Source of the DNA: a virus
Reading direction: 5' to 3' (one strand)
DNA length: 34,062 bases
IMG/VR virus record: IMGVR_UViG_3300028920_001181
Span: 1-34,062 of that record
This document shows, one piece after another, positions 3,364 to 14,453 of this stretch (its first letter is position 1; every line of letters begins with the position of its first letter). The notes below the pieces were generated by a model. The model had not been told where the DNA came from and searched no databases. It worked only from the letters and a program-made list of their open reading frames with translations. The translations under genes were made by a program, and so were the position numbers.

Positions 3364-3535
3364 ATTTCCGTTGCTAATACCAATTTCCGTAAAGGGGTCC
3401 CTTTCCCGTGCGAGCGGGCACGGGACGCCTGCGGGCGTCGCCCGCGAGGCCGCCGCTTGACGAGTCGGGTAGGCTGGGAACCGTGGATCGTGAGTTCTTA
3501 TTATTAGTTTTTTGTTACAAAAGGAGGTGTATTGT
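3364..3535 (+). promoter_or_regulatory. Structured leader of the Ubl operon (copy A)
   Basis: This gene-free, locally G+C-rich segment has two blocks shared with 10507-10685. One is a 26-base block (3364-3389), itself two ATTTCCG direct repeats flanking TTGCTAATACCA. The other is a 21-base block (3455-3475) that is identical in both copies. The ~65 bases between differ in sequence but not in length. Here they can form a 7-bp hairpin (3405-3411 with 3418-3424) and two mutually exclusive 6-bp hairpins (3424-3429/3434-3439 versus 3431-3436/3440-3445). It ends in AAAGGAGGT before the GTG at 3536. Promoter plus structured 5' UTR is the simplest reading. Confidence 0.6.
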
Positions 3536-3772
3536 GTGAGGTATGGGAATCGTTACGTGGTGATTCGTTTTTTGGAAGGGCGAGGAGCAAGAACGCGGCA
3601 CTTGAGGACAGATGGGATTATTTTGTGGTCCTATCGGGATGCAATTGCCAAGAGACTTGGTACTGACAAAGTTCTTATTTTGAGCAAAGGGTGCTCAAAA
3701 ACAAGCCGATACCATTTCCGATTGGTTCAGGCGGTAGCAACGGAAATGGGTTTTGAGATCATACCGTCATAG
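3536..3772 (+). CDS. Small protein at head of Ubl operon, 78 aa
   Basis: I chose the GTG at 3536 because AAAGGAGGT lies 7 bases upstream; an in-frame TTG at 3512 would read through that ribosome binding site. The protein is basic and mixed alpha/beta. Its central part (ILWSYRDAIAKR ... SKGCSKTSRYHF) resembles small phage and virus proteins with an 'L-x-SY-x-T-x-IA ... S-x-TTS-x-H' pattern and no known function. It is 9 bases upstream of the Ubl gene, so it is first in the operon. Whether it takes part in conjugation or is an unrelated early gene is unknown. Confidence 0.75.
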   Translation: MRYGNRYVVIRFLEGRGARTRHLRTDGIILWSYRDAIAKRLGTDKVLILSKGCSKTSRYHFRLVQAVATEMGFEIIPS

Positions 3773-3781
3773 GAGAAAGAC

Positions 3782-4018
3782 ATGGAGAGTCAGAATCGCA
3801 GAATTTTGGTGTCGGACCACGAGGCAGGTACTTTGGACGAGACCCTGGTGTCGAAATCGAAAACGGCCCAACAGTATCTCCTCGAATTGAAAGGATCGGG
3901 GTGGAGCGAGCGGATGTCAGCTCGTTTGAACGGCCAACTTCTTTCCGAGACGGGAAATCAGGCTTTCTCGGACGGGGATGAGCTGACGCTCAGTCCTCGA
4001 AAGGTGGGTGGAGCCTAA
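3782..4018 (+). CDS. Ubiquitin-like (beta-grasp) modifier ending in Gly-Gly-Ala
   Basis: 78 residues, near the 76 of ubiquitin. The C-terminal half has the ThiS/MoaD/ubiquitin layout: ARLNGQLL, then SDGDELTLSP, then a basic stretch ending KVGGA. The 'DGDELTL.P...GG' pattern is typical of beta-grasp proteins activated by ThiF/E1 enzymes. Gly76-Gly77 are followed by one Ala, so a mature di-glycine terminus would need removal of a single residue. The start follows AGGAG. The next genes encode E2, E2, JAB and E1 proteins, which makes the assignment strong despite low identity to ubiquitin. A terminator-like hairpin directly downstream (4026-4068) could make this the most abundant product of the operon. 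Confidence 0.85.
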   Translation: MESQNRRILVSDHEAGTLDETLVSKSKTAQQYLLELKGSGWSERMSARLNGQLLSETGNQAFSDGDELTLSPRKVGGA

Positions 4019-4025
4019 TCGGAGA

Positions 4026-4068
4026 AGGGGGAGTTGTCCTATGCGGGGCAATTCCCCCTCTTTTTCTT
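4026..4068 (+). terminator. Rho-independent terminator/attenuator after the Ubl gene
   Basis: AGGGGGAGTTG (4026-4036) pairs with CAATTCCCCCT (4049-4059) over 11 bp with one G-T wobble, followed by CTTTTTCTT. It lies inside the operon, so partial read-through would lower expression of the E2, JAB and E1 genes relative to the Ubl. Confidence 0.7.
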
Positions 4069-4097
4069 ATTGTCATTCCTTTATAGGAGAATCGGTC

Positions 4098-5051
4098 ATG
4101 ACAAAAGAAAGAAGAAGGGTCATTCAATTATATTGTCGATTGGTCCAAAGGGTGCAACAGCATCGAATGGCTCAAAAGCGAAGTTCGATAACACGAGCAA
4201 ATTTTTGTGCTCTCGGTTCTTGCGAGAAGTTACGAACCCAGACCAATCTGACTTTGAATTTGATTCATCGCAAATCATGGGGAGAAGCACAAAGATCGTT
4301 GGCTGAAATAAGGGGGATTATCGCTTCGTCGAAATCTCAATATGAGGAATTCCTCCAAGAACTTAAGGTATGGTGCAAGCCCCTACCCAATGTTAAATAT
4401 CGAGTACGCTGGTTACCCTCGGAATTCGACGTGACACAAACGGAAACCCTAGGGATAGCTTGGGTATGGACAACTCCGAAGATTTATCTTAAGAGGAAAC
4501 TCATAGGGCCATACAAAGTATTTGTACCTTGGTCTGCTTTCCTCTACCCCACAACAATTGACATTAGAATCCGGAATTTGAACCCAAAAAGTCCTCACGA
4601 AGGTTATCCGCATCCCCATGCAGATCGAGATGGCCGATTTTGTTTGGGTGCAAACAGAAACGCGATGGAAAATTGTTTCTGGGCATTGGACCTCAGAACA
4701 ATTAAAGACACCATAGAATCTCTTCTGTCCCTTTACAATCCAGACTCGCCTTTTATCAAATGGACGAGATGGAGCCGAAGTGTGAGAAGCTGCTCATGGT
4801 GTGGAGAACCCGTCACAGAGGAGAACGGGGCAGCCCGTACTACAGACGGCGAACTTCTTTGCTCCTCATGTGCGATAATTTGTCCAGTATGCTCACGGTA
4901 TGTGAGGCTGGGTTCCTCACTCGGGTGTCTCATATGTGGCGTTTCACACTGTAATAATTGCCTAAGCAAGTGTTCAATATGCGGTCGTTGGATATGTCCG
5001 AAATGTGTTTCGACCACAAATCCTATCACTTGTTGTGAGTGCCGACACTAA
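4098..5051 (+). CDS. E2-like Ubl-conjugating enzyme with C-terminal Cys-rich zinc domain (E2-a)
   Basis: 317 residues from the ATG at 4098, which follows TAGGAGA; the longer frame from 4008 would overlap the Ubl gene and terminator. Residues about 1-90 are a helical extension. Residues about 95-225 carry the E2 (UBC) core: GYPHPHADRDGRFCLG places His172-Pro173-His174 exactly 8 residues before Cys182, the spacing of the HPN...C motif in eukaryotic E2s. Cys182 is the predicted thioester cysteine. Residues 232-315 contain 16 cysteines, mostly in C-x2-C pairs, including two exact units C-x2-C-x4-C-x2-C starting at Cys277 and Cys292. This domain may act as a built-in E3-like or binding module. It is followed 10 bases later by a paralogue. 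Confidence 0.88.
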   Translation: MTKERRRVIQLYCRLVQRVQQHRMAQKRSSITRANFCALGSCEKLRTQTNLTLNLIHRKSWGEAQRSLAEIRGIIASSKSQYEEFLQELKVWCKPLPNVKYRVRWLPSEFDVTQTETLGIAWVWTTPKIYLKRKLIGPYKVFVPWSAFLYPTTIDIRIRNLNPKSPHEGYPHPHADRDGRFCLGANRNAMENCFWALDLRTIKDTIESLLSLYNPDSPFIKWTRWSRSVRSCSWCGEPVTEENGAARTTDGELLCSSCAIICPVCSRYVRLGSSLGCLICGVSHCNNCLSKCSICGRWICPKCVSTTNPITCCECRH

Positions 5052-5061
5052 GGAGGTCCCC

Positions 5062-6177
5062 ATGAGTCGCTCAGTACGAGAAATAAAATTGCATAATCGA
5101 TTTCTCCATCGGACTCTGAAAGCTCGAACCCGAAATCAGATATTATGGGCCATGTCTATGGCCCGTAGTAACCTCTCGGACCTTCGGAGATTCATGAAAG
5201 GCTTGGAGAAATCCCAAGTGGATCATGCGATGCTTTACCGAATGCAGAGAAGGTTGGGAGAAAGAGTGCCTGAGGTGATCCCATCCTTACTGGGGGAATC
5301 GGAGTGTATCGCACTCCGGTTGAAGCAAGAACTGCCGATGGAACATGGAAGATGGTTTAACTCTTCAAATTCCTTGAATGTTTGGACTTGGGTAACGCCG
5401 ACTCTGCATCTTAGGGGAATAGAATGCGGACCTTTTCTAGTTCGGATTCCATGGCATTACTTCGAGTTTCCCGAAAGGGAGATTCGAATTCACATTACTA
5501 ACCTAAATCCCCTTGAGAGCCATGGGGGATACCCTCATCCTCATGTGGGCAACGACGGTTTTATCTGTCTGGGTAGCAATACTCAGCTAATTCGTAACAT
5601 GGCAAAACTGTTGGATTTGAGGGGTATCCGACAGGCAGTCGAGGATATTTTAGAGGAATATAACGAAGATTCTCCCTACATTAAGTTGGAAGTCTGGAAC
5701 GGGGAAGTTCAAACTTGTGATCGGTGTGAGGACCCCTGTGATCCGGAGGATTTAATATCCTGTACGGCATGTGAATCCCTGGTATGCCCAAGTTGCCGAA
5801 ACAACTGTGCTCTGTGCATGGAATCATTCTGCTCTGAGCATCTGAGCCGCTGTCCCTTGTGCGGCCACTTGGTATGTGAATCATGCTTCGAATTTTGTGA
5901 TATGTGTGGTGATTATGTTTGTTCCCACTGCATGACCTCATGTGAGCATTGCGACATACCCCTATGCTCTGCTTGTGTGCATTCAGATAATCTCTGCTCC
6001 GATTGTCACGACAAGAGCCTAAAACAATGCAGCGAGTGCGGAGTGATCGGTCTCGACGTTGAAGTAAGGGGGTGCTCTTATTGTGGGGAATGGGTTTGTC
6101 AGCAGTGCGGAACATTGAAAGATGGTTCGTTGTACCATCCTGAGTGCTTAACAAAATTAGAAGAAGAGGAGGATTAA
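5062..6177 (+). CDS. Second E2-like enzyme with five exact 15-residue Cys4 repeats (E2-b)
   Basis: 371 residues from the ATG at 5062, behind AAGGAGG. It is a paralogue of the preceding gene: helical N-terminus (1-95), E2 core (about 100-212) with GYPHPHVGNDGFICLGSN, predicted catalytic Cys169 and HPH at 159-161, again with 8-residue spacing. Residues 219-362 hold about 30 cysteines plus histidines. Units of C-x2-C-x4-C-x2-[C/H] begin at Cys234, 249, 264, 279 and 294, an exact 15-residue period, and another begins at Cys338. Interleaved zinc-binding knuckles or treble clefs are likely. The C-terminus is acidic (EEEED). Two E2s could differ in substrate or act as a pair. No known RING domain was assigned with certainty. 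Confidence 0.88.
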   Translation: MSRSVREIKLHNRFLHRTLKARTRNQILWAMSMARSNLSDLRRFMKGLEKSQVDHAMLYRMQRRLGERVPEVIPSLLGESECIALRLKQELPMEHGRWFNSSNSLNVWTWVTPTLHLRGIECGPFLVRIPWHYFEFPEREIRIHITNLNPLESHGGYPHPHVGNDGFICLGSNTQLIRNMAKLLDLRGIRQAVEDILEEYNEDSPYIKLEVWNGEVQTCDRCEDPCDPEDLISCTACESLVCPSCRNNCALCMESFCSEHLSRCPLCGHLVCESCFEFCDMCGDYVCSHCMTSCEHCDIPLCSACVHSDNLCSDCHDKSLKQCSECGVIGLDVEVRGCSYCGEWVCQQCGTLKDGSLYHPECLTKLEEEED

Positions 6178-6178
6178 A

Positions 6179-7132
6179 TTGAGTCGGTGGCGAAATAAAA
6201 GAAAACGTAAATCTCGTTCCAAGGAAAAATCAATGGTAACAACGCCAAAACTCAAGGTGGTAGATCCGAAACCCGTAGCTCCATCACCCTACAAAAGTCC
6301 GATATTACATTTTACGTCGGAGGCATGGAATCATCTTCTGTGGCTTCGAGATCGGGGAGATACCGAAGTTTCAGCCTTCGGGTATCTCGAAGATCAAAAG
6401 GATAATTTGGTGGTCGAGTCCTTAATCATCCCGAAACAGGAATGTTCTTCGGCCACAACAGAAATGGATGATGAGTCCCTCTCTGAATTAGGGGAGGCAA
6501 TGACCAAAAAGCGTGTAGTACCTTGGAGATACACCAGGGTTTGGATTCACACCCATCCTGGAGAAAGTCCAACCCCTTCCTCGAAGGACTGGGAAACATT
6601 CAGGGAGATCTTCGGAAGATCGAATTGGGCCATCATGTTCGTTTTAGCGAAGGGTGGGCAGACTCATTGTCAAATGGTCCTAAGATCGGACCGATGGGAA
6701 TTGTATCAAACGATTCCCTGTAAAGTCTTGACTCCTGTTGGTCGGGAATGGGAGGAAGAGTATCGAGCTAAAATTGAGACAAAAACATACGGCATTCCGA
6801 TGGGATATGGTTCTTACCAACTTCCTGCCCACTACCAAGACAAGGATTCGGATATCGACGATCCCGAATCCTTTCCCGATTGGTCGGAAAGCCAGAATCC
6901 AGAAACATCGGATGTGATCGAGGATGAGACAGGATATCCCTCGAACGCAGACGGACAAAGAGCCCTTGAAGAAGATTTGGCCTTCGAGCTACAAGCTGGC
7001 GGATCTCCCCCAAATGTTGGGTCGGAGTCCGATTGGAAATGGAGTGACCATTCTCAGAGGTGGTACTACTTTGGAAATTGTATTCGGATTCAAGCAGCAG
7101 TCGTAAACGTCGTGACCGAATACGCAATGTAA
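6179..7132 (+). CDS. JAMM/JAB metallopeptidase (predicted Ubl protease/deconjugase)
   Basis: 317 residues from a TTG one base after the E2-b stop, with GAGGAGG upstream; an ATG at 6233, preceded by AAGGA, is an alternative start. Residues about 40-175 form the JAB fold with a complete catalytic set: Glu63 (DTEVSAFG) and HTHPGESPTPSSKD, which is H124-x-H126-x7-S134-x2-D137. All zinc ligands and the acid/base are present, so it should be active. Likely roles are trimming the terminal Ala of the Ubl precursor and removing Ubl from targets. The N-terminus is strongly basic (RKRKSRSKEK). Residues about 185-317 are acidic and polar with no recognised domain, ending in a tryptophan/tyrosine-rich segment. 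Confidence 0.88.
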   Translation: MSRWRNKRKRKSRSKEKSMVTTPKLKVVDPKPVAPSPYKSPILHFTSEAWNHLLWLRDRGDTEVSAFGYLEDQKDNLVVESLIIPKQECSSATTEMDDESLSELGEAMTKKRVVPWRYTRVWIHTHPGESPTPSSKDWETFREIFGRSNWAIMFVLAKGGQTHCQMVLRSDRWELYQTIPCKVLTPVGREWEEEYRAKIETKTYGIPMGYGSYQLPAHYQDKDSDIDDPESFPDWSESQNPETSDVIEDETGYPSNADGQRALEEDLAFELQAGGSPPNVGSESDWKWSDHSQRWYYFGNCIRIQAAVVNVVTEYAM

Positions 7133-7142
7133 AGGAGAAACC

Positions 7143-7823
7143 ATGCTTCCGATGCAAGTTGATAGAACCCTTCGGTTTTCAACATTATTCGATGTTGAAA
7201 AGCTAATTCAAACTCCAGTCCGAATCATCGGATGTGGAGCTGTCGGGAGGCAGGTTGCTTTGCAACTTGCTGCAATGGGGGTGAGCGAGTTGTATATTTG
7301 TGATTTTGACACAATCACGAGTCACAATGTCGGGAGTCAGGGTTGGCATCCCCGCGAAGTTGGGAAACTCAAGATCGAAATGTTGAGGGAAACACTTCAA
7401 CATTGGAATGGGACCATTTGGACCCAGGAAGGAAAGTGGGAAGAGGGGGATGAAGAAGGAGATTTTCCCACTTTCCTATGCGTGGATTCCCTTTCCGCAA
7501 GACGTAAATGTCTTCGGAAATTGCGAACATTGGGAGTCCCCATCATCATCGACGGAAGAATGGGAGCAGAATATTTCCAAGTGTTCACAGTTCCACGAGG
7601 GCAAGAAGCAGATTTTCTCGACAAGATTCCGAAACAATCGGAACAACATCAGGCCCCATGCACAGCACGGAGTACCCTGTATTGTGCCAATATCGTGGCG
7701 GGGTACATGGTAGCTTCGTACACTGCTTGGATTCGGAAAGCTCCCTCCTTTCCGCTGATCGAAGGGAATATTCTAAGCCGGGAACTCCTTCGCTATCGGA
7801 AATGGGAGGATATCGAACTATGA
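7143..7823 (+). CDS. ThiF/E1-like Ubl-activating enzyme
   Basis: 226 residues, the size of a minimal single-domain E1/ThiF adenylyltransferase. RIIGCGAVGRQVA (27-39) is the Rossmann nucleotide-binding loop; YICDFDTITSHNVGSQ (51-66) supplies Asp54, Asp56 and Asn62; Lys75 or Lys77 follows. DGRMGAEYFQVFTV (137-150) is typical of ThiF proteins linked to E2/JAB genes. Cys173 (QAPCTAR) is the best candidate for a thioester cysteine, with Cys181 nearby. The Arg usually found in the N-x-x-R-Q motif is Ser65 here. Expected reaction: adenylation of the Ubl C-terminal Gly, then transfer to an E2. It starts behind AAAGGAG and overlaps the next gene in ATGA. Confidence 0.88.
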   Translation: MLPMQVDRTLRFSTLFDVEKLIQTPVRIIGCGAVGRQVALQLAAMGVSELYICDFDTITSHNVGSQGWHPREVGKLKIEMLRETLQHWNGTIWTQEGKWEEGDEEGDFPTFLCVDSLSARRKCLRKLRTLGVPIIIDGRMGAEYFQVFTVPRGQEADFLDKIPKQSEQHQAPCTARSTLYCANIVAGYMVASYTAWIRKAPSFPLIEGNILSRELLRYRKWEDIEL

Positions 7824-8740
7824 CAACAATTTTCGACTTCGCATGTCGGGAATGTGGCAGAATCCCGGAATGCCGATTCCATTTGGAAATGTTGGATCGA
7901 GCTCATCTGTTTGATCTACCCGTTATTCCCCATGAGATGCTACCGAAACGATGGTCCCAGGACCAATTGGACTGGTTTCAGGACAATTTCATGCTGCCTT
8001 TCCCTATCATCGGGATTGAAGATCGAGCATCTTTAATCCTGCTGATGGCCCAGAATGAGGGTACCGTAGGCACCCAACAACCTTGGAGATTCATCGAATT
8101 TCTGAGGGAGAAGAGTGATCCTCGGGCATTTCGGGAAGGGGTGGAAGATCTTAATCCCAATAGCCCCACATCGAATAACGTGGGGGGTCTACTGATCCAA
8201 TGGGGGACTTTGCAACAAGAATCCGTTTCCGAAACGGGATATCAGTTGACGGGATCTCTCGCCGGAATTTATATGATCCCTGATCAAACAGGGGATCTTC
8301 TGAACTTGAACCAATGGAGAAGTTCAGAAGATATCGTGACAGCAGCAATACGGAATGCCAACGTGGCCTTAGAGGAGGCTATGGTTTTGGCGAATCGGGA
8401 AACATTCATACTCGAAACTACGCCCTTGGCAGGGCTAAAAAAGCTGGCAAAAAGACCGGAACAAGCTAAAAAAGCTAACTTTCGGTTAAGACCTCTCCGA
8501 AGCCACGAGAGGTCCATTTACACTGTTCTCAGGCCCCACGAAATTCGCAAAGTAATGCGATTGGACGAGGATACTCATCGGTCTGTCCGAGTTCATGAGC
8601 GTCGGGGCCACCAAAGAGTGCTTCGAAGTGACAAATTCACCAAAGCACGGGGGAAAAAGATTTGGATCAATGCCACTTGGGTAGGGGTGTCTGAACAAAC
8701 AATAGGCCGAAAACGATATCGTGTAATTCTTGATGCTTAG
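7820..8740 (+). CDS. Unknown protein translationally coupled to the E1 gene, 306 aa
   Basis: The ATG at 7820 overlaps the E1 stop (ATGA), so translation is probably coupled; the frame is open further upstream but only as an overlap with E1. CRECGRIPEC near the N-terminus (9-18) could bind metal. The middle is helical. The C-terminal ~75 residues are basic, with VHERRGHQRVLRS and KKIWINATWVG (258-289). A similar 'H-x-RRGH ... W-V-x-x-x-W-V-G' pattern occurs in phage and plasmid proteins of unknown function. It may bind nucleic acid or be a target or adaptor of the Ubl pathway; neither is shown. Confidence 0.8.
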   Translation: MTTIFDFACRECGRIPECRFHLEMLDRAHLFDLPVIPHEMLPKRWSQDQLDWFQDNFMLPFPIIGIEDRASLILLMAQNEGTVGTQQPWRFIEFLREKSDPRAFREGVEDLNPNSPTSNNVGGLLIQWGTLQQESVSETGYQLTGSLAGIYMIPDQTGDLLNLNQWRSSEDIVTAAIRNANVALEEAMVLANRETFILETTPLAGLKKLAKRPEQAKKANFRLRPLRSHERSIYTVLRPHEIRKVMRLDEDTHRSVRVHERRGHQRVLRSDKFTKARGKKIWINATWVGVSEQTIGRKRYRVILDA

Positions 8741-8750
8741 GAGGTGTCCC

Positions 8751-9029
8751 ATGCTACCGTTATTTATTGGGGAAGGGGGAAATGTCTCGGTCCAAGATAT
8801 GGGCCGATTAACCTTGGCTCTGGATCTTTTCCGGAAAATCGATTTTCTGGGGTTAAATCCAAAACAAGCAGCGAATTTCCTAAGGGAGCACGCTCTCGAA
8901 GCTCGCCAGAATTATGGATTTCAACTGCTGAGTTCCGCCCAACGGAAAACAGCAGAAAAGTTGAAAGATGAGATCCCGGACACGATCTACCGACTTCGGA
9001 ATTATCTGGGGGCTGTATGCGACGAATAA
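8751..9029 (+). CDS. Hypothetical helical protein, 92 aa
   Basis: The start ATG follows TAGGAGGT, 10 bases after the previous stop. The product is mostly predicted alpha-helix (for example LTLALDLFRKIDFLGLNPKQ) with a basic middle and no cysteine motif, signal or membrane segment. It is a continuation of the Ubl operon and overlaps the next gene by 13 bases, suggesting coupled translation. No family recognised. Confidence 0.75.
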   Translation: MLPLFIGEGGNVSVQDMGRLTLALDLFRKIDFLGLNPKQAANFLREHALEARQNYGFQLLSSAQRKTAEKLKDEIPDTIYRLRNYLGAVCDE

Positions 9030-9262
9030 GCATCGACTTAAGTGAGGGGGATCAGGAAACTTTGAGGGATCATGTTTCCCTCTCCGTAAAATTCAAAACA
9101 CCTGATCCCCTTTTGACAAGTTTCATCGTGGTAATCATGGCCTGTTTGGATCAGGACAAACCGATACCCTGGGGAGCAAAAAGTCTCATCTGTCCCGTCA
9201 TGTCTGAAGAGGACGAAGAAATGGAGAAATGGTTAGATGAGAATATACAACAAGGAGAATAA
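9017..9262 (+). CDS. Hypothetical acidic protein, 81 aa
   Basis: The start ATG lies inside the end of the preceding gene (13-base overlap), with only a weak GGGGG upstream, so it likely depends on coupling. The N-terminal part looks like alternating strand and helix (RRISIDLSEGDQETLRDHV) and the C-terminus is strongly acidic (SEEDEEMEKWLDENIQ). No family recognised. It lies in the same transcription unit as the conjugation genes. Confidence 0.7.
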   Translation: MRRISIDLSEGDQETLRDHVSLSVKFKTPDPLLTSFIVVIMACLDQDKPIPWGAKSLICPVMSEEDEEMEKWLDENIQQGE

Positions 9263-9264
9263 CA

Positions 9265-9816
9265 ATGAGTTGCAGACTAAAAAGGCCCCTATGGCATACG
9301 GAAAATCAGGTGATTCTGGTCCCAAGAAAAAAGGGCCAATGGAACCCTAAAGAGACCAAGAAACGAGCGTTGAGTCCTCGTATTCTGCTGGGTAAATATT
9401 TTCCGGCTTATGTAACTCCTTCCCGATATCTCCGAGAGCTCATTGACCTATTGGAGACCTTCTGGTGGACGAGGAACTACCAGAACAAAACAGATTGGCA
9501 TCAGCTCCGTTGTTTCTTGGAACAAGTGCAGGACCCCAGAATTCGAGAATTCAAAAAGGGAATAATTTGGGCGGAAAAACAATTGACCCGACTCGCTCCC
9601 CCTTTCTGCTTTTGGGGCCATAGAAATCATCAGACTCATGGTTCCATCGGATTTTGGGTAGATCAACGAAAGATGGACCAAACGACAGGAATTGTCACAA
9701 TTCGGCCTGATGAGCCGTGGCCCTCGGGAGCTGATTATGTGCATATTCCGGATAATCCCCAAGGAGCTTGTTTGTACCGGGGGGACACAAGAGAGCTACT
9801 TTGGTGCGACGATTAA
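9265..9816 (+). CDS. Hypothetical protein, 183 aa, last gene of the Ubl operon
   Basis: The ATG follows CAAGGAG and is 2 bases after the previous stop. The first ~45 residues are very basic (PRKKGQWNPKETKKRALSPR). A helical middle follows, then a tryptophan- and histidine-containing C-terminal half (FWGHRNHQTHGSIGFW; YVHIPDNPQGACLYRG) that looks beta-rich. No known family. A 51-base gap holding an inverted copy of the 14-bp motif follows, so the operon probably ends here. Confidence 0.75.
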   Translation: MSCRLKRPLWHTENQVILVPRKKGQWNPKETKKRALSPRILLGKYFPAYVTPSRYLRELIDLLETFWWTRNYQNKTDWHQLRCFLEQVQDPRIREFKKGIIWAEKQLTRLAPPFCFWGHRNHQTHGSIGFWVDQRKMDQTTGIVTIRPDEPWPSGADYVHIPDNPQGACLYRGDTRELLWCDD

Positions 9817-10324: not shown

Positions 10325-10487
10325 ATTGAGGATGGAATAATTTGAGAGGGGGTGTATCATGAAGGCAAAATAGGGATACTTCTTACTCCTGGAATGTGAG
10401 GTAAGGAGTAACTCTGCGACAATCACAGAGCTCCGTACAGATACCCTTGGGAGACCGACCCAGGGGTATCTTATTTTTTTCTTTTTT
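10325..10487 (+). ncRNA. Candidate small structured RNA
   Basis: Between the 14-bp motif and a strong terminator lie about 160 bases without a real gene. They contain hairpins TTACTCC/GGAGTAA (10383-10389 with 10405-10411) and CTCTG/CAGAG (10412-10416 with 10426-10430), then the terminator. If the motif promotes transcription, this is a free-standing small RNA; it may instead be the 3' end of the upstream mRNA. No RNA family recognised. Confidence 0.35.
10439..10487 (+). terminator. Strong rho-independent terminator
   Basis: AGATACCCTTGGG (10439-10451) pairs with CCCAGGGGTATCT (10459-10471) over 13 bp with one wobble and a 7-base loop, followed by TATTTTTTT and further T-rich sequence. Confidence 0.92.
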
Positions 10488-10506: not shown

Positions 10507-10685
10507 ATTTCCATTGCTAATACCAATTTCCGCCACCTGGTAGAATTCACGTGCGTGCCCGCGTGCGATGTGCCTGTGTGCGAAGGGGCGACCGGGTCTG
10601 CTTGACGAGTCGGGTAGGCTTGGGGCGTCGGTGCGGCAGGCCGCGTGGTCTGGTGCTGACAGGGTTTTATAAGCGGAGGTGTGCT
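10507..10685 (+). promoter_or_regulatory. Structured leader, copy B
   Basis: Shares 25 of 26 bases (10507-10532) and an identical 21-base block (10600-10620) with the leader at 3364-3535. The spacing between blocks is the same within 2 bases (67 versus 65), and so is the distance to the start codon (65 versus 60). The middle is G+C-rich with repeated GTGCG but otherwise unlike copy A. It ends GGAGGTGTGCT before ATG 10686. Confidence 0.6.
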
Positions 10686-11201
10686 ATGTCTGAAACTCGA
10701 TTGTCCGACTTGACGAGGGAAGGTTCTCTTGCGGAGCAATGTCTCAATTGCTCCACTGACAAGGATAGGAAATCTTTTGTCGGGAAGGTGCAAACCCTTG
10801 CTGCAAAAGCAGTTGCAACTGCCAAAGGCAAGGCTTGGGCCAAAGCTCTGGTAGCCCATTGTTGCGCTCAGTTGTGGATTGCACAAGCAGAGGGCGGCAC
10901 CGCTTGGCGGTCCAGAGACGGGAAGAAATCTGGCATAAAATGGAACTATGCCGTTCTGCCGGGTAGGCTCAGAGCAATCCTGCCAGAGTGTACGTATTAC
11001 GATAAAGACACAAAGACGCCCGGCATTGATTCGGAGTGGATCAAAGCATTGAAGGAGGCGGGCGTTGTGTCTACCCCTTGGTTGGCTTACGGGTTCCGTG
11101 GCCGAAGGTGTCAGCATGTGAGCTTGGATGGGATCGGGGAGGGCAAGGCAGCGGAGCAAGCCCCACAATCCAGAGAATTGTTAAAGGCTTTGGGACTGTG
11201 A
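10686..11201 (+). CDS. Hypothetical protein, 171 aa
   Basis: The ATG at 10686 follows GGAGGTG. The frame is open upstream through the leader, but that part is not supported. The protein is alanine- and lysine-rich in its first half (VQTLAAKAVATAKGKAWAKA), helical, then more globular (KKSGIKWNYAVLPGRL; WLAYGFRGRRCQHVSLDG). It seems to use more G+C-rich codons than its neighbours. No family recognised. It is flanked by leader copy B and a perfect terminator, so it is a single-gene transcription unit. Confidence 0.75.
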   Translation: MSETRLSDLTREGSLAEQCLNCSTDKDRKSFVGKVQTLAAKAVATAKGKAWAKALVAHCCAQLWIAQAEGGTAWRSRDGKKSGIKWNYAVLPGRLRAILPECTYYDKDTKTPGIDSEWIKALKEAGVVSTPWLAYGFRGRRCQHVSLDGIGEGKAAEQAPQSRELLKALGL

Positions 11202-11209
11202 ACCGACAG

Positions 11210-11253
11210 AACCCTAGGCTACTTTCAACGTGGAGGTAGCCTAGGGTTTTTTT
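11210..11253 (+). terminator. Strong rho-independent terminator
   Basis: AACCCTAGGCTAC (11210-11222) and GTAGCCTAGGGTT (11236-11248) are perfect complements over 13 bp with a 13-base loop, followed by a T run to 11253. Confidence 0.95.
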
Positions 11254-13226: not shown

Positions 13227-14453
13227 GTGGACCAATTAAAGCTTTACAGTAACGCCTTTTCTCTCATAGCTGATTTTCACCCCGAAAAGCCCGATTTAAG
13301 CTTTGAAGAAGTTGATGAACTTGCTTCCAAGTTGGAAAAAACGGGCCTGAACAGTAAATGGCAATGGGAGTTGCTCAGAACCCGCCTTCAAAGGGGTAAA
13401 AACAGCTATAATTCAGCAGAGCTTCAAAAATTAAAGAACAAAGCTATTCTGGCAGCTATAGAAAGAGAGGGGGACTGTTTAGTAAATGGTAATAGGTGGA
13501 AACCAGTTCCTTTCCATGAAGCTGGTTCCACCGAACAAGTCGAATGGGTTTGGGATGGCTTTCTAGCTAAATCCCAAATATCCCTGTTGTCCGGATACCC
13601 TAAAGCCGGAAAAACTACTTTGATGACTCACATGATTAAATTGGCTGCCCAAGGAGGCACCCTGGGGACGTCTGTGAGGCCCGGAAAGATTTTGGTCGTG
13701 TCTGAGGAGTCCGGGAACCTTTGGAGGCGTAGAAGTGCCCGATTTGGTCTTGTGGGGGACGTTCTAGCCCAACCCTTCGCTGGTAGACCCACAAAAGAAC
13801 AATGGAAGCAATTTATCGGGTATCTGACCAAAGAAATTCGGAACGATACTTACGATGTGGTCATATTCGACACATTGGCCTCTCTGGCCCCAATTGCCGA
13901 CGAAAACGACTCAGCACACATGTTGGATGCGATAACGCCTCTAAACAGCCTTTCTGGGGCTGGAGCAGCCGTTCTGTTGATTCACCACATTCGAAAATCA
14001 GATGCAACTCAAGGAATGGCCGTCCGAGGCAGTTCGGCCTTGCCCGGTTTCGTAGATATCATCCTGGAACTACGAGCTTATGATCCTTCTCGCCGAATGG
14101 ACACCCGACGACGACTGACGACCTTTTCACGATTTGAGGAGACCCCGAGGGAGGTTATCCTGGAATGGACTCCAACCGGATACAACACTCTCGGGGAAGC
14201 TGAAGATTTGTCGATGGCCGAACGATGGGACACCATCAGCGATATCTTGTCCCTCCAAGAGGACCGGACAGCCTCATACGAAGAAATTCTGGAACACTGG
14301 CCCGGACCTTCGGGATGTCGTCCCTCGCTTCGGACCATCCGAGGTGATTGTACAAAAGGAGCAGAGCAGGACATCTTTGTTCGAGTAGGTTCGGGGAGGC
14401 GTAGCTCTCCCTTTCGGGTAGCTCTACCCGAAAGAGAGACTCCACCATCATAG
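13227..14453 (+). CDS. RecA-fold replication ATPase (DnaB/RepA-like helicase type)
   Basis: 408 residues from a GTG preceded by CGGAGA. Residues about 1-100 are a helical N-terminal region. The RecA-like core has Walker A GYPKAGKTT (123-131), a glutamate-containing strand ILVVSEESGN (155-164), Walker B VVIFDTLASL (211-220, Asp215) and the sensor strand AVLLIHHIRKSD (248-259). This arrangement matches hexameric RepA/DnaB-type helicases and the related AAA_25 group. The last ~70 residues could be a winged helix. Expected to unwind or remodel DNA at the fork, working with the polymerase at the left edge. Helicase versus loader cannot be settled here. Confidence 0.85.
   Translation: MDQLKLYSNAFSLIADFHPEKPDLSFEEVDELASKLEKTGLNSKWQWELLRTRLQRGKNSYNSAELQKLKNKAILAAIEREGDCLVNGNRWKPVPFHEAGSTEQVEWVWDGFLAKSQISLLSGYPKAGKTTLMTHMIKLAAQGGTLGTSVRPGKILVVSEESGNLWRRRSARFGLVGDVLAQPFAGRPTKEQWKQFIGYLTKEIRNDTYDVVIFDTLASLAPIADENDSAHMLDAITPLNSLSGAGAAVLLIHHIRKSDATQGMAVRGSSALPGFVDIILELRAYDPSRRMDTRRRLTTFSRFEETPREVILEWTPTGYNTLGEAEDLSMAERWDTISDILSLQEDRTASYEEILEHWPGPSGCRPSLRTIRGDCTKGAEQDIFVRVGSGRRSSPFRVALPERETPPS

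Follow-up and report, generated by a model that had tools for sequence, protein, structure and literature searches.

Why does a phage genome hold what looks like every component needed to attach a ubiquitin-like protein (Ubl) to other proteins and remove it again, when Ubl conjugation in bacteria is known chiefly as an antiphage defense? This question is raised by the IMG/VR virus record IMGVR_UViG_3300028920_001181, which we analyzed as one window of 34,062 bases; all coordinates are window positions. An earlier note on this DNA had claimed a complete set of Ubl, two E2 enzymes, a JAMM protease, and an E1. Five open reading frames (ORFs) do lie at the place given for them, and profiles, predicted folds, and a four-gene linkage agree with the claim. 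In the order Ubl-E2a-E2b-JAMM-E1, these genes occupy positions 3782-7823 on the plus strand. Their ribosome-binding sites are good, and most of the gaps are short. We consider it quite probable from the sequence that the phage encodes its own ubiquitin-like conjugation system, both self-contained and reversible, composed as follows.

3782..4018, plus strand: Ubl, 78 amino acids, predicted beta-grasp, C terminus VGGA (AlphaFold2, Foldseek, family profile).
4026..4059, plus strand: intrinsic-terminator-like hairpin between Ubl and E2a, directly 3' of the Ubl stop, 15 pairs then the T run CTTTTTCTT (z -4.35).
4098..5051, plus strand: E2a, 317 amino acids, active-site Cys182 (4641-4643), putative zinc-binding C-terminal tail from residue 231 with 17 Cys.
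5062..6177, plus strand: E2b, 371 amino acids, active-site Cys169 (5566-5568), long putative zinc-binding tail from residue 218 with 31 Cys and 7 His, RING/treble-clef-like.
6233..7132, plus strand (6233 being the most likely start): JAMM/JAB metalloprotease, E45, H106xH108, S116xxD119 (only a sub-threshold Pfam match, Prok-JAB 8e-4; residue conservation).
7143..7823, plus strand: ThiF-type E1, 226 amino acids, candidate catalytic Cys173 (7659-7661) (Pfam ThiF 6.7e-17; residue conservation).

Single-protein searches of IMG/VR with E2b, E1, the terminase, and the gene that begins at 7820 found no relatives, nor did searches of phages with E2b and this last gene. For this reason, loci were sought with a DNA pattern for the E2 active site, P-H-P-H-x4-G-x2-C-(L)-G, and with a second pattern that was less constrained at its start. 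In IMG/VR, the first pattern returned 11 stretches, 10 of them real family loci; a relative of the window E1 was found in all of these (10/10 records) and in 28/29 records of a later set, and a relative of the JAMM in 8/8 IMG/VR records checked. The second pattern added 33 further loci. Applied to the cellular genomes of GTDB (257 Gb, 84,980 species), the first pattern matched 53 stretches. An E1 accompanied only six of them (in Zixiibacteriota, a planctomycete, a deltaproteobacterium, two candidate phyla radiation (CPR) bacteria, and one further bacterium), and the remaining 47 provide a negative control against matches that arise by chance. As an E1 accompanies the pattern in 10/11 viral stretches versus 6/53 cellular ones, the linkage is not due to chance.

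Altogether, 38 nonredundant loci with E2 and E1 were collected besides the window, mostly from phages, with a JAMM in 35 and a Ubl in 36 according to profiles run over all loci. The genes lie on the same strand throughout at all 38, usually as Ubl-E2-JAMM-E1, with variants in which the Ubl comes last or the enzymes are reversed. The combination with two E2s, which the earlier note thought new, recurs as E2-E2-JAMM-E1 in three loci (L018, L093, and L094). The sets E2-E1-Ubl of L026 (Uhrbacteria), L031 (a bacterium), and L043 (Paceibacterota) have no detectable JAMM, and a plasmid search returned nothing beyond partial ThiF matches. Judged by these sequences, the Ubl-E2-JAMM-E1 family is phage-dominated. 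Several phages have two systems, complete or partial: L092 has two whole E2-JAMM-E1 sets, and two E1s occur in G016, G017, G027, and G033, as if two separate modifier systems coexisted in one phage.

Cultured phages are among the carriers. In Xanthomonas phages PhiXhv-12/15/16 and Erwinia phage Ep032 (about 228 kb), the E1 adjoins a protein of 892 residues that combines an E2 domain (E2 profile about 1e-8) with a zinc-rich tail. In the Flavobacterium phage FpV and crAss-like phages (cr111_1 and Bacteroides DAC17), the JAMM and E1 join the family, and the upstream genes are E2-like and Ubl-like; these two have no significant profile link to the family, although the E2-like proteins contain an HSH..CLG motif. 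The same kind of block, with Ubl-like, E2-like (HSH..CLG), JAB, and ThiF genes, lies at L022:3824-7699 and L023:3591-7711 (crAss-like), where it is annotated as hypothetical, metalloprotease, and thiamine biosynthesis.

The catalytic residues cited in the earlier note (Cys182, Cys169, the JAMM site, and the E1 nucleotide loop with candidate Cys173) are correct. In the window E1, GxGxxG, D54/D56, N62, K77, and Cys173 are all present, and all 46 members, at a median identity of 26%, retain Cys173 and the residues of the nucleotide site. Likewise, E45, H106, H108, S116, and D119 are all present in the window JAMM, and none of the 40 members, whose median identity is only 19%, departs from these five residues. 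With invariant sites at such low identity, E1 and JAMM look like active enzymes under selection.

E2a Cys182 and E2b Cys169 both sit within PHPHxxxxGxxCLG. The window E2s have no useful match in Pfam or PHROGs; because the E2s and the Ubl fall below threshold in single-sequence searches, the family context is required. A profile of 37 family E2 cores searched against PDB chains, as had been suggested, matched UBC E2s throughout among the matches listed, the best at 8.4e-5. In this alignment, the family HPH..C lies over the HPN..C of eukaryotic E2s with the Cys in register; where the classical HPN has Asn, the family has His, and one clade reads GPH rather than HPH. Cys-rich tails with at least three CxxC pairs are present in 14/37 family E2s, including E2a and E2b of the window, which makes the E2-zinc fusion a recurring design. 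The E2b tail shows weak RING matches, to TRIM32 (E 0.012) and MAT1. The zinc tail would plausibly act as a built-in target-recognition or E3 part.

Structure prediction of the window Ubl gave a beta-grasp model (predicted local distance difference test score, pLDDT, 79), as the earlier note had expected, and the best Foldseek matches are ubiquitin-like proteins (SUMO, ubiquitin, and ISG15; E 1e-4 to 1e-3). The Ubl family profile matches SAMP2 at 1.3e-9, as well as archaeal ubiquitins and ThiS. By its model, the window Ubl is a beta-grasp protein. A single Ala follows its Gly-Gly; Gly occupies the corresponding position in 14/15 aligned Ubls, and 0/15 end exactly at Gly-Gly, so that maturation by the JAMM is predicted. 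Moreover, polyubiquitin-like tandem Ubl genes lie beside E2-JAMM-E1 in L101 (10546-11196), L092 (6090-6770), and L094 (3589-4074). The L101 gene holds three Ubl repeats, each with a KQIKGN end, while L092 has three and L094 two; the repeat ends across these loci are KGN, QGA, or similar.

A hairpin comparable to the one behind the window Ubl gene follows the Ubl gene in 11/21 loci, whereas among the other genes of these loci only 4/140 ends have one (Fisher p 1e-8, which is overstated because the loci are related in groups and the counts are not fully independent). It is present in about six distinct lineages. Such a leaky terminator would probably yield Ubl in excess of the enzymes.

Computation supports the folds or profiles of Ubl, E2, JAMM, and E1, the intact invariant active sites, the four-gene linkage, and the hairpin enrichment; how the reactions proceed, what the zinc tails do, and the ratio of Ubl to enzymes are inferred. 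The JAMM would trim the residue or residues behind the last Gly of the Ubl precursor, and the ThiF-type E1 would adenylate the C-terminal Gly and then probably accept the Ubl on Cys173. An E2 would take over the Ubl on Cys182 or Cys169 and hand it to a target, probably recruited by the zinc-finger tail acting as a built-in E3. The same JAMM would later remove the tag. Homology gives this biochemical scheme a solid footing.

Several points, besides the relatedness of the loci in the hairpin count, weigh against this interpretation. The full-length E2b model is poor (predicted template modeling score, pTM, 0.35) and has no PDB match below 1e-3 in Foldseek, where the LIM, PHD, FYVE, and RBR zinc folds that appear are all weaker than this value. 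The PH..G..C..G residues belonged to the search patterns, and the invariance of the E2 site is thus partly selected. The window Ubl by itself matches Pfam ThiS only at a sub-threshold 0.086. Finally, neighboring genes, on which the choice of target below relies, are no proof of a target.

Operons of this general kind are known in bacteria, also from work on Bil, Bub, and CBASS. Bil (BilABCD, ISG15-like) shares Ubl, E2, JAB, and E1 in one operon with intact catalytic residues. However, the present system is found in phage genomes, its E2 HPH..C site is nearer to UQ_con than to Prok-E2_C, and it has zinc-finger tails, a single or same-type tandem Ubl that matches ThiS/SAMP2 at the family level, and a terminator after the Ubl gene. 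The likeness to Bil drawn in the earlier note does not extend to the sequence level: 0/37 E2 cores match the Prok-E2 families of Pfam, including Prok-E2_C, which is listed for ISG15-like (Bil) systems (PMC10952713), whereas 3/37 match the eukaryotic UQ_con. On the features compared, E2 family and Ubl type, the system appears to fall outside Bil.

Operons with Ubl, E1, E2, and JAB were already known in bacteria (PMC1779556). Type 6d of Iyer et al. 2006 (PMC1779556) shares separate Ubl, JAB, E1, and E2 genes, but its E2 carries a His after the Cys rather than before it, it includes a conserved helical protein, and its JAB has an extra N-terminal domain. The lambdoid TAPI/TAPK Ubl and JAB (PMC1779556) are likewise phage-encoded but come without E1 or E2 and serve tail assembly. 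CBASS type II (Cap2/Cap3) shares the E1, E2, and JAB activities; its E1 and E2 are fused, it has no Ubl, and the CD-NTase itself is conjugated, whereas here E1 and E2 are separate genes and the operon has no CD-NTase match. The archaeal SAMP and Caldiarchaeum systems share the JAMM; in profile comparison, the present Ubl comes closest to SAMP2 and lies near archaeal ubiquitin. The Caldiarchaeum system belongs to cells and has small RING proteins in separate genes. SAMP systems are not known to have an E2.

What, then, would be tagged? Our guess, at about even odds, is that the targets are intracellular host or phage proteins during infection, with virion proteins less likely, because replication and recombination genes surround the operon in many loci. 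These neighbors include DnaB, family A polymerase, SNF2 and DEAD helicases, and an SMC/SbcC-like ATPase with a calcineurin-like (SbcD-like) phosphoesterase; in crAss-like phages, primase and uracil-DNA glycosylase (UDG) are among them. More tentatively, unrelated phages, including the cultured Xanthomonas and Erwinia jumbo phages and perhaps crAss-like ones, may reprogram or disarm host proteins through a dedicated, sometimes polyubiquitin-like Ubl and E2-zinc-finger E2/E3 fusions.

Bil defense, in which the Ubl is attached to phage tail proteins and infection is blocked, offers a precedent for the alternative that the pathway is aimed at virions, decorating the phage's own particles or spoiling those of competitors (superinfection exclusion). 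Besides a terminase (phrog_38, 6.6e-53) and a DnaB/primase-type ATPase, the window shows a weak major head match, and the head genes lie downstream on the same strand as the operon. The earlier note had placed the operon next to structural genes; terminase and head genes do follow, but the DnaB/primase-type replication gene at 13227-14453 separates them from it. As operon genes also sit among replication genes in crAss-like and several other phages, and the family E2s are dissimilar to Prok-E2_C, we regard virion tagging as unlikely.

A sulfur-carrier pathway of the ThiS/MoaD/CysO type, in which a Ubl thiocarboxylate serves cofactor, amino-acid, or nucleic-acid modification, would account for the resemblance of the Ubl family to ThiS and SAMP2 and of the E1 to ThiF/MoeB, and CysO-type pathways likewise combine JAMM, Ubl, and E1. 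However, such pathways have no E2, whereas an E2 with intact Cys accompanies the E1 in 38 loci, and poly-Ubl precursors and zinc-tailed E2s better match a protein modifier, which makes this alternative improbable. Capture of a bacterial defense operon (Bil, Bub, or CBASS-like) as cargo by one phage is highly improbable and largely refuted, given that the PADLOC and NCBIfam matches of E1 and JAB to CBASS-type E1-E2 and Cap3 models are weak and partial, neither a Prok-E2 family nor a CD-NTase is matched, and the family occurs mostly in viral contigs, with six true cellular loci among 84,980 species by the first pattern.

Around the conjugation genes lie the following features.

3512..3772, plus strand: small ORF, 86 amino acids, 9 bp 5' of the Ubl gene, no Pfam match; it may be the first gene of the operon transcript.
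7820..8740, plus strand: 306-amino-acid protein, start overlapping the E1 stop (ATGA), no relatives detected; probably cotranscribed with E1, yet outside the conserved core.
8751..9029, plus strand: protein of the same gene run, not core, no family match.
9017..9262, plus strand: protein of the same gene run, not core, no convincing match.
9265..9816, plus strand: protein of the same gene run, not core, no family match.
10439..10471, plus strand: terminator-like hairpin, probably the end of the operon transcript.

The four genes 3' of E1 had been noted as extra unknown proteins; none of them recurs in at least three of the other system loci, and the 7820 gene has no detected relative in phages or IMG/VR, so nothing ties them to the Ubl system.

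A very strong terminator-like hairpin of 20 pairs (11208-11250) lies downstream of ORF 10551-11201, and positions 1458-2525 encode a Gly-rich low-complexity protein of 355 amino acids with no family match, possibly tail-fiber-like and structural. On the minus strand, an ORF at 1-1404 combines a UDG domain (PF03167, 1.7e-12) with a following DNA-polymerase-like part (phrog_17) as a UDG-polymerase fusion; in G016, G017, and G018, UDG domains likewise lie within ORFs of more than 1,000 amino acids. A link between UDG and the operon, which adjoin each other in crAss-like phages, in Flavobacterium phages, and in G002, was rejected, as 15/32 records have UDG, mostly distant from the operon. An AAA+ ATPase (PF00004), a possible unfoldase partner, is encoded close to the Ubl operon in four loci that represent at least two lineages (e.g., L016:13726-15300 and L018:12694-14460).

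The earlier note had not mentioned the zinc-finger tails, the terminator that follows the Ubl gene, or the spread of the system through many phages. A literature search, limited by incomplete coverage of subscription papers and preprints, turned up no description of such a system in phages. What appears new is a family that resides in phages, has an E2 type of its own, and shows zinc tails, poly-Ubl genes, and a terminator that follows the Ubl gene, although the literature covered cannot prove novelty. Overall, a gene set found across dozens of unrelated phages looks like a widespread viral tool rather than a one-off. A complete pathway in dozens of diverse phages suggests the reverse of the known defensive use, with bacterial viruses employing Ubl tagging for themselves. 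The canonical-like E2 active sites, fused zinc fingers, and polyubiquitin-like genes are also relevant to how the eukaryotic ubiquitin system arose, and since cultured carrier phages exist, the question of phage Ubl tagging is testable now.

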